In this document: positions 8,811-12,540 of the stretch, one piece after another
Numbering within the stretch: the first letter of the stretch is position 1
Layout: every line of letters begins with the position of its first letter
Assembly (NCBI GenBank): GCA_949291395.1
Contig: CASEVW010000041.1
Coordinates: 1-32,343 of the forward strand
Direction: 5' to 3'
Length of the DNA: 32,343 nucleotides
From: an uncultured Oscillospiraceae bacterium
GTDB taxonomy: Bacteria > Bacillota > Clostridia > Oscillospirales > Ruminococcaceae
The notes under the pieces: model-generated
The model's database searches: none
Seen by the model: the letters and a program-made list of their open reading frames with translations, nothing else
Told to the model about the DNA's origin: nothing
Program-made: the position numbers and the translations under genes

Positions 8811-10646
8811 TCACGCCTCCTGTTCCTGTGAATGAAAATGCTGGTAGACGGCCGCCGCCGCCTTTTTGCTCACGCCTTTTGCGTTTTCCAACGCTTCCAG
8901 CTCCGCCTGACGCACCGCCCCCACCGACTTAAAGTGCCCCAGCAGGGCTTTTGCGGTGGCAGGCCCCACGCCGGGGATGGCGGTGAGGCTGGAGGCATAG
9001 GCCTTCTTTTTCTGGCTGGCCCGCTGGTAACTGATGGAGAACCGGTGCACCTCGTCCTGAATGGAGGAGATGAAGGTGAAGATGTTCCGGTGCATGCTGA
9101 TGGCGATCTCCTGGCCGTCGCTGGTGACGATGGCCCGGGTGCGGTGGTGGTCGTCCTTCACCATGCCGTACAGGGGCACCGCCGCCAGCTGCGTGCCCGC
9201 CAAAGCGGCCTTCACGGCGCTCACCTGGCCCTTGCCGCCGTCCAGCAGGATCACGCTGGGCAGCACCGAAAACTGGCCCGGCGTGCCCTTTTCGTACTCT
9301 TTTGCCCGGCGGCTGAGGGCTTCGGCCATGCTGGCGTAGTCGTCGGTGCCCACCACCGTTTTCATCTTGAACCGCCGGTAGCCGCTCTTTTTGGGGCGGC
9401 CGTTCTCAAACACCACCATGCCGCAGACGCTGGTGCCGTCGCCCCAGTTGGAGATGTCGTAGCTCTCGATCACCTGGGGCGGCTCGGGCAGGCCCAGCAC
9501 GGCGGCGGCCTCATCCAGCAGGCGCTGCTGCCGGTCGGTGCGGCCGCTCTCCCGGGCCAGGCGCTCCACCGCGTTGGTGTAGGCCATGTTCACCAGTTTG
9601 GCGGTGTCGCCCCGCTGGGGCACATACAGCTGCACCTTGCTGCCCCGGGTCTGCTCCAGCAGCTGGTTCAACGCCTGGGCGCTCTCGGGCAGGGCATCCA
9701 CGGCGATCACCCGGGGGATCTCCTCCCCGTCCAGATAATAGCGGGGCAAGAATTCCTCCCGCAGGGCTTCCAGGTCGGTGGAGCCCCGGAACAAGAATTC
9801 CCGCTTGTCGGTCAGGCGGCCCTGGCGGTAGCGCAGGATGGCGGCGCAGCTGTTCTGCCCGGCGCCGGCAAAAGCGATCACGTCCATCTGCACGTTCTCG
9901 TCCACCACCACTTTCTGCCCGGCAGACACCTTTTTGATGGCGGCGATCTGGTCCCGCAGCAGGGCGGCCTGTTCAAAGTCCAGCCGCTCGGCGGCCTGCT
10001 CCATCCGCTGTTCCAGCGTTTTCACGATGTCCTTTTTGCCGTGGCGGATCAGCCGGATGGCTCCCTGCACCGCCTCGTTGTAGGCCTCCTTGCTGATCTT
10101 GCCGCTGCACAGGGCCATGCACTTGCCGATGTGGGCGTTCAGGCAGGGGCGGCCCTTGCCGATCTCCTGGGGGAAGCGCCGGCTGCACCGGGGCAGCAAA
10201 AAGGCGTTCTGGGCGGTCTCCACCATCTCCCGCACCGCAAAGCTGCTGGTGTAGGGGCCGATGTACTCCGCCCCGTCCTCCTCTTTTTGCAGCACTGCCG
10301 AGATGCGGGGGTATTCCTCCTTCGTCACCTTCACATAGCTGTAGCCCTTGTCGTCCTTTAACAGGATGTTGTATTTGGGGGTGTGGGCCTTGATCTGGCT
10401 GGCCTCCAGCACCAGGGCTTCAAACTCGCTTTGGCAGACGATCACGTCAAAGGCAAAGGCGTGCTCGATCATCTGGGTGACCTTGGCGTCGTGGGGCACC
10501 CCCTCCCGGAAATACTGGCTCACACGGGTGCGCAGCCGCTTTGCTTTGCCGATGTAGATGATCTCGTCCCGCTTGTCCCGGATGATATACACGCCGGGCA
10601 AAAGGGGCAGCATCTTGGCTTTTTGGTACAGTTCGGCCTTGGTCAT
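8811..10646 (-). CDS. uvrC: Excinuclease ABC subunit C (UvrC)
   Basis: UvrC makes both incisions around lesions in nucleotide excision repair. The 611-residue protein has the GIY-YIG nuclease domain (GVYIIRD to YIGKAKRLRTR, residues 18-41), a cysteine-containing linker, a UVR helix pair (LEQRMEQAAERLDFEQAALLRDQI), the RNase H-like C-terminal nuclease (VIESYDISNWGDG with catalytic Asp) and a helix-hairpin-helix end (LTAIPGVGPATAKALL). The ATG at 10646 is chosen because AAGGAGG lies 8 nt upstream and MTKAEL leads directly into the nuclease domain. An in-frame start at 10697 would lie inside the IS element. The insertion edge falls within the ribosome site (core CT at 10658-10659), leaving the GGAGG intact but moving the original upstream DNA 1.5 kb away. 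Confidence 0.96.
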   Translation of the reverse strand: MTKAELYQKAKMLPLLPGVYIIRDKRDEIIYIGKAKRLRTRVSQYFREGVPHDAKVTQMIEHAFAFDVIVCQSEFEALVLEASQIKAHTPKYNILLKDDKGYSYVKVTKEEYPRISAVLQKEEDGAEYIGPYTSSFAVREMVETAQNAFLLPRCSRRFPQEIGKGRPCLNAHIGKCMALCSGKISKEAYNEAVQGAIRLIRHGKKDIVKTLEQRMEQAAERLDFEQAALLRDQIAAIKKVSAGQKVVVDENVQMDVIAFAGAGQNSCAAILRYRQGRLTDKREFLFRGSTDLEALREEFLPRYYLDGEEIPRVIAVDALPESAQALNQLLEQTRGSKVQLYVPQRGDTAKLVNMAYTNAVERLARESGRTDRQQRLLDEAAAVLGLPEPPQVIESYDISNWGDGTSVCGMVVFENGRPKKSGYRRFKMKTVVGTDDYASMAEALSRRAKEYEKGTPGQFSVLPSVILLDGGKGQVSAVKAALAGTQLAAVPLYGMVKDDHHRTRAIVTSDGQEIAISMHRNIFTFISSIQDEVHRFSISYQRASQKKKAYASSLTAIPGVGPATAKALLGHFKSVGAVRQAELEALENAKGVSKKAAAAVYQHFHSQEQEA

Positions 10647-10673
10647 CGGCCCGCCTCCTTGTATTATAGAGTA

Positions 10674-10850
10674 GTAGTTATTAGAGCCCCTCTCCAAGGG
10701 CTATGTGCTACACTGTAAGGGATGCTGTGGATTGGTGATCGCCTCCTACCACAAGATGGTTCTTGAAAGGTTCCAACCACAGCCCCTTACATTTTGTTGA
10801 TCAGTTAAATACCGCCAGACGGTTTATGTGGAACAAGGCTACAAAAGTAA
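10674..10850 (+). ncRNA. Bridge RNA of the IS110 element
   Basis: Three structured parts can be drawn by eye. (1) A 5' hairpin, AGCCC (10685-10689) with GGGCT (10698-10702). (2) A target-binding loop: TGTAAGGG (10714-10721) with CCCTTACA (10784-10791), GCTGTGG (10724-10730) with CCACAGC (10777-10783), TTGG with CCAA, then an internal loop whose left side holds CGCCTCCT (10740-10747) and right side TGAAAGG (10764-10770), capped by ACCA/TGGT. (3) A donor-binding loop: TTTTGT (10792-10797) with ACAAAA (10841-10846), left side AGTTAA (10803-10808) matching the right end of the IS, right side ACAAG (10833-10837) complementary to CTTGT at the left end, capped by ACCG/CGGT. This is the IS621 bridge-RNA architecture. 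Exact RNA ends are inferred. Confidence 0.85.
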
Positions 10851-10899
10851 GGTGTACTGTGGATGCAGCATCACATATTTACCGCTGGAGGGATTTGTT

Positions 10900-12078
10900 A
10901 TGGTGATTTCTGTTGGTATCGATGTCTCAAAAGACAAACACGATTGCTTTATCGTCAGCTCTGAGGGCGAAGTCCTGGCGGATGTATTCACGATTCCAAA
11001 CAACATGGATGGGTTTCACCGTCTGTTGCAGAAGATCGAGGCTTGTGCTACACCGCAGGACAAAATAAAAGTAGGGCTTGAGGCGACCGGGCATTACAGC
11101 TACAACCTTCTCGGGTTTCTTCTTGACAATGGTCTGGCCACCTATGTCCTGAACCCCTTGCGCACAAACCTCTACCGAAAAAGCCTTAGCCTGAGAAAGA
11201 CCAAAACCGACCGGGTGGATGCACGAACGATTGCTTCTATGCTGTTATCCGATGCGGGCCTCAAACCCTACACAACTACAGCATACCACAACGAAGAGCT
11301 AAAGTCACTAACCAGATACCGTTTTGACAAGGTGAAGGAACGCGCCAAACTGAAAAGTTCTGTCTCCCGGCTAGTCTGTATCCTGTTTCCTGAGCTGGAA
11401 AAGCTGGTGCCGTCTCTGCACATTGCCTCGGTCTACGCCTTGCTGGAGGAGTTCCCCGGAGCCAAGCAGGTTGCAAGCGCCCATTTGACCAGGCTAAAAT
11501 CCCTTCTGGAAACAGCCTCCAAAGGCCGCTACAAGCAGGAAATGGCGCTGGCGATCCGCAATGCAGCCAAAAACTCGATTGGTTCCCGGATGCCTGCCAA
11601 GTCCCTTGAATTGCAGCACACCATCCGTCTCATCCGTGAATTGGATACTGAAATCGTGGAAATCGAGGAACAGATCCAGTCCATTATGGATGAACTCCAT
11701 TCTCCCATTACCACTATCCCAGGATTGGGCTTCCGTATGGCTGCTATGATCCTTGCTGAAGTGGGCGATTTCTCTCGCTTTGACTCCCCGGACAAGCTGC
11801 TGGCTTATGCCGGGATGTCGCCCTCTACTTACCAGTCCGGCCAGCTTAAAAATTGCTACCCGCACATGGAAAAGAGCGGTTCCAGGTACCTGCGCTATGC
11901 CCTTTTCAATGCAGCCAAGTATGTCTGCCTCTGGGACACTAACTTTGCCGCTTATCTTGCCAAGAAACGGGCGGAGGGCAAGCATTACAACGTCGCCATT
12001 TCTCATGCAGCCAAAAAGCTCGTGCGTCTGATTTTCGCTATGGAAAAATCCGGGACGCCCTACCATTTGACCGTCTGA
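10900..12078 (+). CDS. IS110-family transposase (bridge-RNA-guided recombinase)
   Basis: The 392-residue protein has the RuvC-like DEDD N-terminal domain: Asp8 (GIDVSKDK), Glu61 (GLEATGHY), Asp104 and Asp107 (TKTDRVDART). A coiled-coil stretch follows, then the C-terminal Transposase_20 domain with PGLGFRMAAMILAE (274-287) and the probable catalytic serine Ser313 in AGMSPSTYQSGQ, followed by SGSRYLRYALFNAA. IS110 enzymes recombine donor and target DNA through this serine and a DEDD pocket, guided by the bridge RNA. The ATG at 10900 has a GGAGGG site 8 nt upstream and gives the usual MVISVGIDVSK start. The reading frame is open and all catalytic residues are present, so the element looks active. 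Confidence 0.95.
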   Translation: MVISVGIDVSKDKHDCFIVSSEGEVLADVFTIPNNMDGFHRLLQKIEACATPQDKIKVGLEATGHYSYNLLGFLLDNGLATYVLNPLRTNLYRKSLSLRKTKTDRVDARTIASMLLSDAGLKPYTTTAYHNEELKSLTRYRFDKVKERAKLKSSVSRLVCILFPELEKLVPSLHIASVYALLEEFPGAKQVASAHLTRLKSLLETASKGRYKQEMALAIRNAAKNSIGSRMPAKSLELQHTIRLIRELDTEIVEIEEQIQSIMDELHSPITTIPGLGFRMAAMILAEVGDFSRFDSPDKLLAYAGMSPSTYQSGQLKNCYPHMEKSGSRYLRYALFNAAKYVCLWDTNFAAYLAKKRAEGKHYNVAISHAAKKLVRLIFAMEKSGTPYHLTV

Positions 12079-12098
12079 CTTCTTCCGCTTTGCTATCC

Positions 12099-12116
12099 GA
12101 GGCCCGCTCGGGCCTC
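12099..12116 (+). terminator. Hairpin after the transposase gene
   Basis: GAGGCCCG and CGGGCCTC form an almost loop-less perfect inverted repeat 20 nt after the stop codon. The T-rich stretch that follows is separated from it (CTTTTT at about 12131), so it is a weak terminator at best. Confidence 0.45.
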
Positions 12117-12173
12117 TGCTTTGCTATACCCTTTTTGAGCCATCTGCTTTTTCGCCTCCACTCATTTTGGGGG

Positions 12174-12179
12174 TTGACT
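12174..12179 (+). promoter_or_regulatory. Half-promoter (-35) at the right end of the IS
   Basis: TTGACT lies 15 nt inside the right end (counting through the core). In the excised circle it would sit exactly 17 nt before TATTAT (10662-10667) at the left end, giving a complete promoter aimed at the bridge RNA and transposase. In the inserted state the left -10 is faced only by the weak host sequence TTGGTC (10639-10644). Confidence 0.7.
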
Positions 12180-12220
12180 TTTAATAGTTAATCTTTCATT
12201 GGTCATTATGCCCCGATCAG

Positions 12221-12276: not shown

Positions 12277-12540
12277 TTACTCAGCAAAACCGGAGTTCAC
12301 CAGCTTGACCAGGCCCTCCACGGCAGCCTGCTCGTCCGCGCCGTCCGCGATGATGCGGATGGTGGTGCCGCCCACGATGCCCAGGCTCAGAACGCCCAGC
12401 AGGCTCTTGGCGTTTACCCGGCGCTCTTCCTTTTCCACCCAGATGGAAGACTTGTACTCATTGGCCTTCTGGATGAAGAAGGTAGCGGGACGGGCATGCA
12501 GGCCGACCTTGTTTTCTACAGTAACTTCTTTAACAAACAT
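12277..12540 (-). CDS. ptsH: Phosphocarrier protein HPr
   Basis: HPr carries phosphate from enzyme I to the sugar-specific EIIA proteins of the phosphotransferase system. The 87-residue protein has the active-site His15 in GLHARPA and the regulatory Ser46 in NAKSLLGVLSLG, the site phosphorylated by HPr kinase for carbon catabolite control in Firmicutes. Length is normal. No ptsI follows: the gene is followed by a terminator and then, in the ancestral arrangement, uvrC. The start at 12540 has only a modest GGAG site about 10 nt upstream. The leader contains a stem-loop (12571-12599) and a cre-like palindrome (12663-12672). Confidence 0.96.
   Translation of the reverse strand: MFVKEVTVENKVGLHARPATFFIQKANEYKSSIWVEKEERRVNAKSLLGVLSLGIVGGTTIRIIADGADEQAAVEGLVKLVNSGFAE

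Follow-up and report, generated by a model that had tools for sequence, protein, structure and literature searches.

What brings a mobile element to rest directly ahead of a gene's ribosome binding site? The window, by which we mean the whole 32,343-nucleotide stretch of DNA analysed here, raises this question because it holds an intact insertion sequence between uvrC and ptsH, both of which are on the minus strand. The element and its immediate surroundings are as follows.

10660..12194, plus strand: intact IS110-group insertion sequence, 1535 bp, right-hand core CT included
10900..12078, plus strand: IS110 transposase/recombinase, 392 aa, identified by its domains, NCBIfam and solved relatives
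8811..10646, minus strand: uvrC, start codon at 10644-10646, UvrC domains
12277..12540, minus strand: ptsH (HPr), the upstream neighbour, PF00381
10654..10659, minus strand: Shine-Dalgarno sequence (SD) of uvrC, AGGAGG, 7 nt before the ATG and kept beside the gene by the insertion
10652..10659, plus strand: left target CGCCTCCT, with core CT at 10658-10659, matching the left target guide
12193..12198, plus strand: right-hand core CT (12193-12194) and right target TTCA, complementary to the right target guide
12186..12191, plus strand: left donor AGTTAA in the right end, read directly, with the same letters as 10803-10808

The limits of the element are based on ends that are common to relatives with differing flanks, and the coordinates and letters given for it in the original prediction proved right to the base on direct reading. 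Judged by the best 80 of 361 related places, a Candidatus Faecalibacterium assembly contains the nearest named copy (94% of the protein), and the named relatives come mostly from Oscillospiraceae and other gut Clostridia. The same genome has two more partial copies, each at a contig end. The right end of the partial copy L002 (G000 contig 20) reads GTTAAGCT versus GTTAATCT in the window, a difference that lies one base ahead of the core. At the other boundary, a longer, TTG-started uvrC frame enters the element (10647-10697, minus strand) and is a possible trap for gene callers; uvrC probably starts at the ATG of 10644-10646.

Both PF01548 (the DEDD RuvC-like domain) and PF02371 (the serine domain) score over their curated cut-offs in the transposase, as does the NCBIfam IS110 model NF033542, and its solved relatives by sequence match are the ISCro4 and IS621 recombinases. 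The non-coding ends are unequal, with 240 nt before the transposase start codon versus 116 nt after the stop codon, and the longer left end with an RNA in it is the arrangement of the IS110 group. Two other assignments were rejected. In the IS1111 group the RNA lies in the right end, and here the long non-coding end and the guides are upstream of the transposase. The model for TIGR-Tas endonucleases, NF052498, gives 26.3 bits at a cut-off of 100.

The left end is also where a bridge RNA and one half of a promoter are predicted.

10674..10850, plus strand: predicted bridge RNA, from fold and consensus, its extent set by analogy with IS621
10674..10711, plus strand: predicted 5' hairpin of the bridge RNA, from single-sequence fold and consensus
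10740..10747, plus strand: left target guide CGCCTCCT with anti-SD seed CTCCT, co-varying with left flanks
10764..10770, plus strand: right target guide TGAAAGG, co-varying with right flanks
10803..10808, plus strand: left donor guide AGTTAA, following the right-end sequence in 82 of 84 readable pairs
10833..10837, plus strand: right donor guide ACAAG, following the first base of the left end in 95 of 98 readable pairs
10662..10667, plus strand: sequence like a -10 element, TATTAT, in the left end, completed by the right-end -35 when the ends join in the circle
12174..12179, plus strand: sequence like a -35 element, TTGACT, in the right end, from the joined-end comparison

The left-end region folds at -55.2 kcal/mol (z -2.3; 2 of 200 shuffles equally good) into a 5' hairpin followed by two stems with large internal loops. 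A consensus of 33 sequences, the window included, keeps the hairpin and both stems. It has 40 pairs, and in 11 of them both partners are changed in one sequence or more. Its covariation term is small (-2.3 of -36.9 kcal/mol) because the stem columns are mostly near-invariant. The hairpin and the target and donor loops that had been proposed upstream of the transposase are seen in both fold and consensus, and the predicted order of 5' hairpin, target loop and donor loop would be that of an IS110-group bridge RNA. Rfam gave no match at the gathering threshold anywhere in the window. In three relatives (L118:2714-2960, L142:2714-2960 and L115:879-1126), the left end gives two matches to the left-end profile over its first 42-44 nt, and this doubled start could lead to a second hairpin ahead of the bridge RNA.

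The IS110 circle is described in the main text on IS621 as having a promoter rebuilt across its junction (PMC11208160), and the joined ends here fit this description. TTGACT or a near variant, 17 nt, and TATTAT or TATAAT follow one another in 86 of 88 paired insertions; of the two that do not conform, one has a 22-nt spacing and one has no match. Upstream of the left-end -10 in place there is a weak TGGTCA alone, in the flank. The comparison argues for a promoter that is rebuilt across the circle junction in the manner of the IS110 group.

In the window itself, the guides read as they had originally been proposed. The left target guide at 10740-10747 is, on direct reading, identical to the left flank at 10652-10659 (CGCCTCCT), and the right guide is complementary to CTTTCA at 12193-12198 and to CCTTTCA in the joined target. 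The CT core is common to both ends (10658-10659 and 12193-12194). The donor guides match the element's ends, AGTTAA at 10803-10808 being the same as 12186-12191 and ACAAG being complementary to CTTGT at 10658-10662. Nevertheless, the window alone is modest evidence, because the relatives' guides most often read CTCCT on the left and GAAAG on the right; when these are discounted, three left matches and the final A on the right are left. A second copy in the same genome, L003, has a left end 94% identical to that of the window, carries the guide CCTCTCCT in place of CGCCTCCT, and has inserted next to a flank that ends in CCTCTCCT. Each of the two copies thus matches its own site over 8 nt. A Pfam search with part of the L003 target gene found no family.

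Relatives provide a larger sample, in which junctions were set by left-end homology, independent of guide matching. The best 80 of 361 related places were kept, viral contigs gave 18, and two further locus sets contributed at most 30 loci each. Among 147 left-end matches, 134 were usable and 96 of these were paired with a right end. They represent 124 distinct insertions, as defined by 25-nt left flanks, with a paired right end in 88. A full left target guide ending in CT is present in 109 of the 124, the other 15 being without a full guide, and the right side was usable in 73.

At left positions -4 to -9, the 109 insertions give 450 matches between guide and flank versus 267 in shuffled pairs, the highest of 2000 shuffles being 301. 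When one event is taken per distinct guide (89), there are 368 matches versus 223 in shuffled pairs (highest of 2000, 256), and the left signal as a whole spans -3 to -10. Among 73 events on the right, the five positions that follow the core (+1 to +5) are matched in 99, 95, 88, 78 and 73%, versus 72, 63, 50, 30 and 33% in shuffled pairs. The original prediction was to be abandoned if homologous elements had guide positions that do not co-vary with their flanks; when tested, they do co-vary. By these counts the guides appear to follow both target and donor as in the IS110 group, and the donor part consists of two alternative states that may follow clades. Counted from the junction, 51 of the 109 insertions match without a break over no more than 5 nt, so either recognition is tolerant or guides have drifted.

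What the guides have in common is as informative as how they vary. The 79 distinct left guides (10-mers) have C at -3 in 78, T at -4 in 61 and C at -5 in 64, and GAAAG is the usual reading of the right guides. Combined, the guide pair reads CTCCTTTC, the complement of GAAAGGAG. In the host genome there are 156 occurrences of CTCCTTTC versus 65 for the reversed control, and CGCCTCCTTTCA with at most one mismatch occurs 20 times versus 3; the sole exact copy of CGCCTCCTTTCA is also SD-like, ahead of a GTG or TTG start. Likeness of GATCGCCTCCT, the guide in the window, to the end of 16S rRNA led us to consider that the guide may copy the 16S tail; no occurrence of the 16S end pattern was found in the draft assembly. 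The SD of the transposase itself, GGAGGG (10887-10892), is complementary to the left target guide as well, which would in principle allow the bridge RNA to pair with the transposase messenger.

What the original prediction missed is what these guides address, namely the SD of uvrC, which is kept by the insertion. The pair had been called new; the guides themselves are confirmed, but they are a variant of an anti-SD guide that is common in the lineage rather than an arbitrary address. AAGGAG precedes the uvrC start in 11 of 17 relatives with a readable start, among 19 relatives' loci examined. An alignment of uvrC leaders took in 7 of these 17, all hand-chosen with AAGGAG, and in it the SD aligns across the left junction without an insert, while the promoter-side leader is shorter in the window and gapped. 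Because the SD side aligns and the promoter side is gapped, homology speaks for the left junction and leaves the right one unproven. An empty site reading CGCCTCCTTTCATTGG before uvrC had been predicted. No exact empty allele of the same species was found, and the ptsH-side flank matched only homologous leaders in relatives; these leaders agree with the predicted site at its SD end and give no information about the opposite end.

An outward promoter for uvrC, based on the minus-strand TATAAT of the left end, was considered and dropped because, at standard spacing, transcription from it would begin within the SD and because a scan of the element found no minus-strand promoter. Minus-strand terminator-like sites at 11208-11182, inside the element, and at 12256-12230, closing ptsH, argue against much read-through into uvrC.

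The uvrC site proves to be typical. Start codons were sought in the 121 insertions whose left flank is 220 nt or longer. A start qualified when it faced away from the element, stood at a distance of 8-19 nt from the core and began an open frame of 60 codons or more; the remaining CCT sites within the same left flanks served as controls (n=6440). An ATG, GTG or TTG start qualifies in 78 of 121 insertions versus 1083 of 6440 controls, and for ATG only the counts are 68 of 121 versus 498 of 6440. Among events at AGGAG alone, 43 of 60 qualify versus 81 of 478 for CTCCT controls, some of which are themselves real SDs; with each distinct guide counted once, 58 of 100 events are at a qualifying start. 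The excess is sharply placed. ATG per site is 0.339 versus 0.025 in controls at 12-14 nt from the core and 0.157 versus 0.020 at 15-17 nt. Elsewhere the values stay close to background apart from minor excesses, for example 0.074 per site at 48-50 nt. On the right side of the element, a start codon is found in 2 of 71. The remaining 43 of the 121 close insertions have no qualifying start codon. Among them, L006, L016 and L162 still have AGGA...ATG yet fail the 60-codon rule, and L107, L108 and L060 are not at a start. As a behaviour seen in sequence comparison, this would be SD targeting of the IS900 kind, with start codon, spacer and SD at the junction.

Some left ends also appear to carry traces of self-insertion. 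Because the left guide equals its target, the element's own DNA is half a target. In two close relatives, L070 (2676-2762) and L280 (116-201), an incomplete left end breaks off precisely at the guide core, and a complete one comes after it; for L280, no right end was found in the stretch fetched. In L272, a remote relative, 20 nt of flank are identical to its own left end at the guide. These patterns fit self-insertion followed by loss of one copy.

Could such a distribution arise without an SD address? If insertion were broad and selection then spared genes, the survivors would be found in front of genes, since insertions within genes would be purged and leaders would be permitted sites; that some insertions lie away from starts agrees with this. 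Such a process predicts a spread over leaders on both sides of the element, but the starts are concentrated at 12-17 nt, with minor excesses at other distances, and on the left side only (right, 2 of 71), and the seed is present in the guides themselves (T at -4 in 61 of 79, C at -5 in 64 of 79). We consider selection of this kind very improbable as the explanation. An idea that we rate marginally lower again is that the guide is overwritten from the flank by conversion after landing, which would make the match a consequence of insertion rather than its cause. The great diversity of guides (89 distinct in 109 events) and the left ends rearranged at the guide in L070 and L280 are what conversion might produce. 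However, guides found at two or more sites match as well as single-site guides (4.19 versus 4.10 of 6), and the match of the right guide is to the opposite flank, on the complementary strand and 1.5 kb off, which is beyond one conversion.

The remaining alternative, to which we give the least credence of all, is that the recombinase protein rather than the RNA recognises the SD and that the likeness of the guides is incidental. Near-constancy of CCT in guides (78 of 79) and in flanks (121 of 124) speaks for it. Against it, the variable positions from -4 to -10, and up to +5 on the right, co-vary pairwise with the flank, and elements of genome G783 with a different guide-like sequence have different sites, a point that is partly circular because the G783 guide was placed by match and position. 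We thus hold it very probable that this is an IS110-group element moved by a bridge RNA, in which a target loop with an anti-SD seed sends most insertions to SDs.

The same addressing extends to remote relatives. A search across the phylum covered 398 genomes, 121 of which had a match. Where copies within one genome were comparable, breakpoints gave the flanks directly; for three pairs (G596, G584, and L270 versus L241), copy comparison gave no breakpoint. The remote set comprises 61 distinct junctions from 107 loci, all 27-52% identical, which were placed by a left-end pattern and are not a random sample of the family because that pattern requires known left-end types and a CT core. Left out were 38 loci without a junction by pattern and 8 that were repeats or too short. 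Remote insertions lie at an SD and start in 46 of 61 cases versus 124 of 729 controls (ATG only, 38 of 61 versus 59 of 729), and 15 of 61 are without a qualifying start codon. The longest exact flank end that can be refound in the element's own left end averages 6.54 nt, a mean that includes the one 20-nt self-insertion of L272, versus 4.69 nt for shuffled pairs (highest of 500, 5.20).

Several remote elements depart from the rule. The three G783 copies (L203, L204 and L205), 44-48% identical, have a guide-like GTGTTCT in the left end and flanks ending GTGTTCT, GCGTTCT and GTGTACT, and none of the three is at an SD. One of them has stop codons in its gene. As judged from these sequences, G783 is a natural exception in which a non-SD guide-like stretch appears to be paired with non-SD sites. 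The joined flanks of L203, CTTAGTGTTCTTTGTGGTT, look like a dispersed repeat. L220, L246 and others are likewise not at starts. A group in G859 and G593 (L258, L259, L278, L273 and L274) has short left ends and breaks near GGAG on the right side, with a possible start codon after the right-side GGAG in L259; this group may show SD addressing in the opposite orientation. On balance, we lean slightly toward the view that SD addressing is the default and probably old mode of the IS110 group in Gram-positives, with the anti-SD seed kept while spacer-reading positions drift, which would make the address universal yet cheap for the host, and that departures such as G783 and IS621 are later retargetings.

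How might such an element move? By homology with IS621, it would excise as a circle, and the joined ends would form a promoter from which the bridge RNA is transcribed from about 10674. The recombinase would hold the circle junction by the donor loop and the target by the target loop, with strand exchange at the CT core. Comparison among relatives shows that the predicted target loop combines an anti-SD seed (CTCCT in the left guide, GAAAG in the right guide) with about five faster-changing guide positions that read the spacer between SD and start, and that most examined insertions lie at the SD of a gene pointing away from the transposase. Because the cut is on the promoter side of the SD, AGGAG, spacer and start codon stay with the gene, and the upstream region alone is displaced, by 1.5 kb. 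Host transcription arriving from the right might cross the element antisense and continue into the gene, and perhaps such antisense read-through limits the cost of insertion and quiets the transposase.

A guide rule of this kind would explain why a whole RNA-guided lineage sits at translation starts, and it makes the lineage a variant worth naming. The many natural pairs of guide and target form a large set for learning how much mismatch bridge recombinases tolerate. For genome engineering, landing ahead of an intact SD and start represents both a class of site and an off-target risk.

The IS621-type architecture that had been proposed for this element is supported: the domains, the predicted left-end bridge RNA with both loops, the CT core and the joined-end promoter agree with it. 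As described in the main text of its report, IS621 of E. coli is alike in its recombinase domains, in the bridge RNA of its long left end, in two loops with left and right guides, in a core dinucleotide common to the guides and in a promoter rebuilt across the circle junction (PMC11208160). The left donor guide here is without a visible core, unlike that of IS621. Reprogramming of IS621 guides is already known in print to redirect insertion. The usual targets of IS621 are REP elements, which account for 144 of its 173 mapped insertions, whereas the guides here address SDs, and the term Shine-Dalgarno is absent from the main text of that paper (PMC11208160). Among solved structures, the ISCro4 recombinase (PDB 9t56) is the best match, by sequence only. 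In the IS1111 group, the seekRNA of ISEc11 is likewise an RNA of a non-coding end that selects the target, but it lies downstream of the transposase rather than upstream as here; in the main text of that paper, 'Shine' is absent, and the single uses of 'ribosome binding site' and 'start codon' concern other matters (PMC11187229). Our literature search, which lay mostly outside subscription papers, found bridge RNA guides nowhere linked to SD sequences.

The nearest precedent for the target class is an older one. According to a 1997 title, IS900 reportedly targets translation initiation signals. In the accessible part of one paper, the motif printed for this element of Mycobacterium avium subsp. 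paratuberculosis, CATGNNNNNNTCTCCTT, has start codon, spacer and SD in the same order as here; the host belongs to a different phylum, and neither a bridge RNA nor the cut point in the motif is given there (PMC8141618). IS900 also has a 'hed' frame, described in that text as lying on the other strand, spanning the element and having no start codon (PMC8141618), whereas here none of the started minus-strand frames spans the element, the longest inside it being 190 aa. The guide rule turns the IS900 observation into one that can be tested. The machine is thus the published IS110 bridge RNA system, of which this element is a new member, and the SD target class is foreshadowed by IS900; what appears to be new is that the guides carry the SD address, in the form of a conserved seed and a tail that drifts, and that they do so over a broad span of IS110 elements from Gram-positives.
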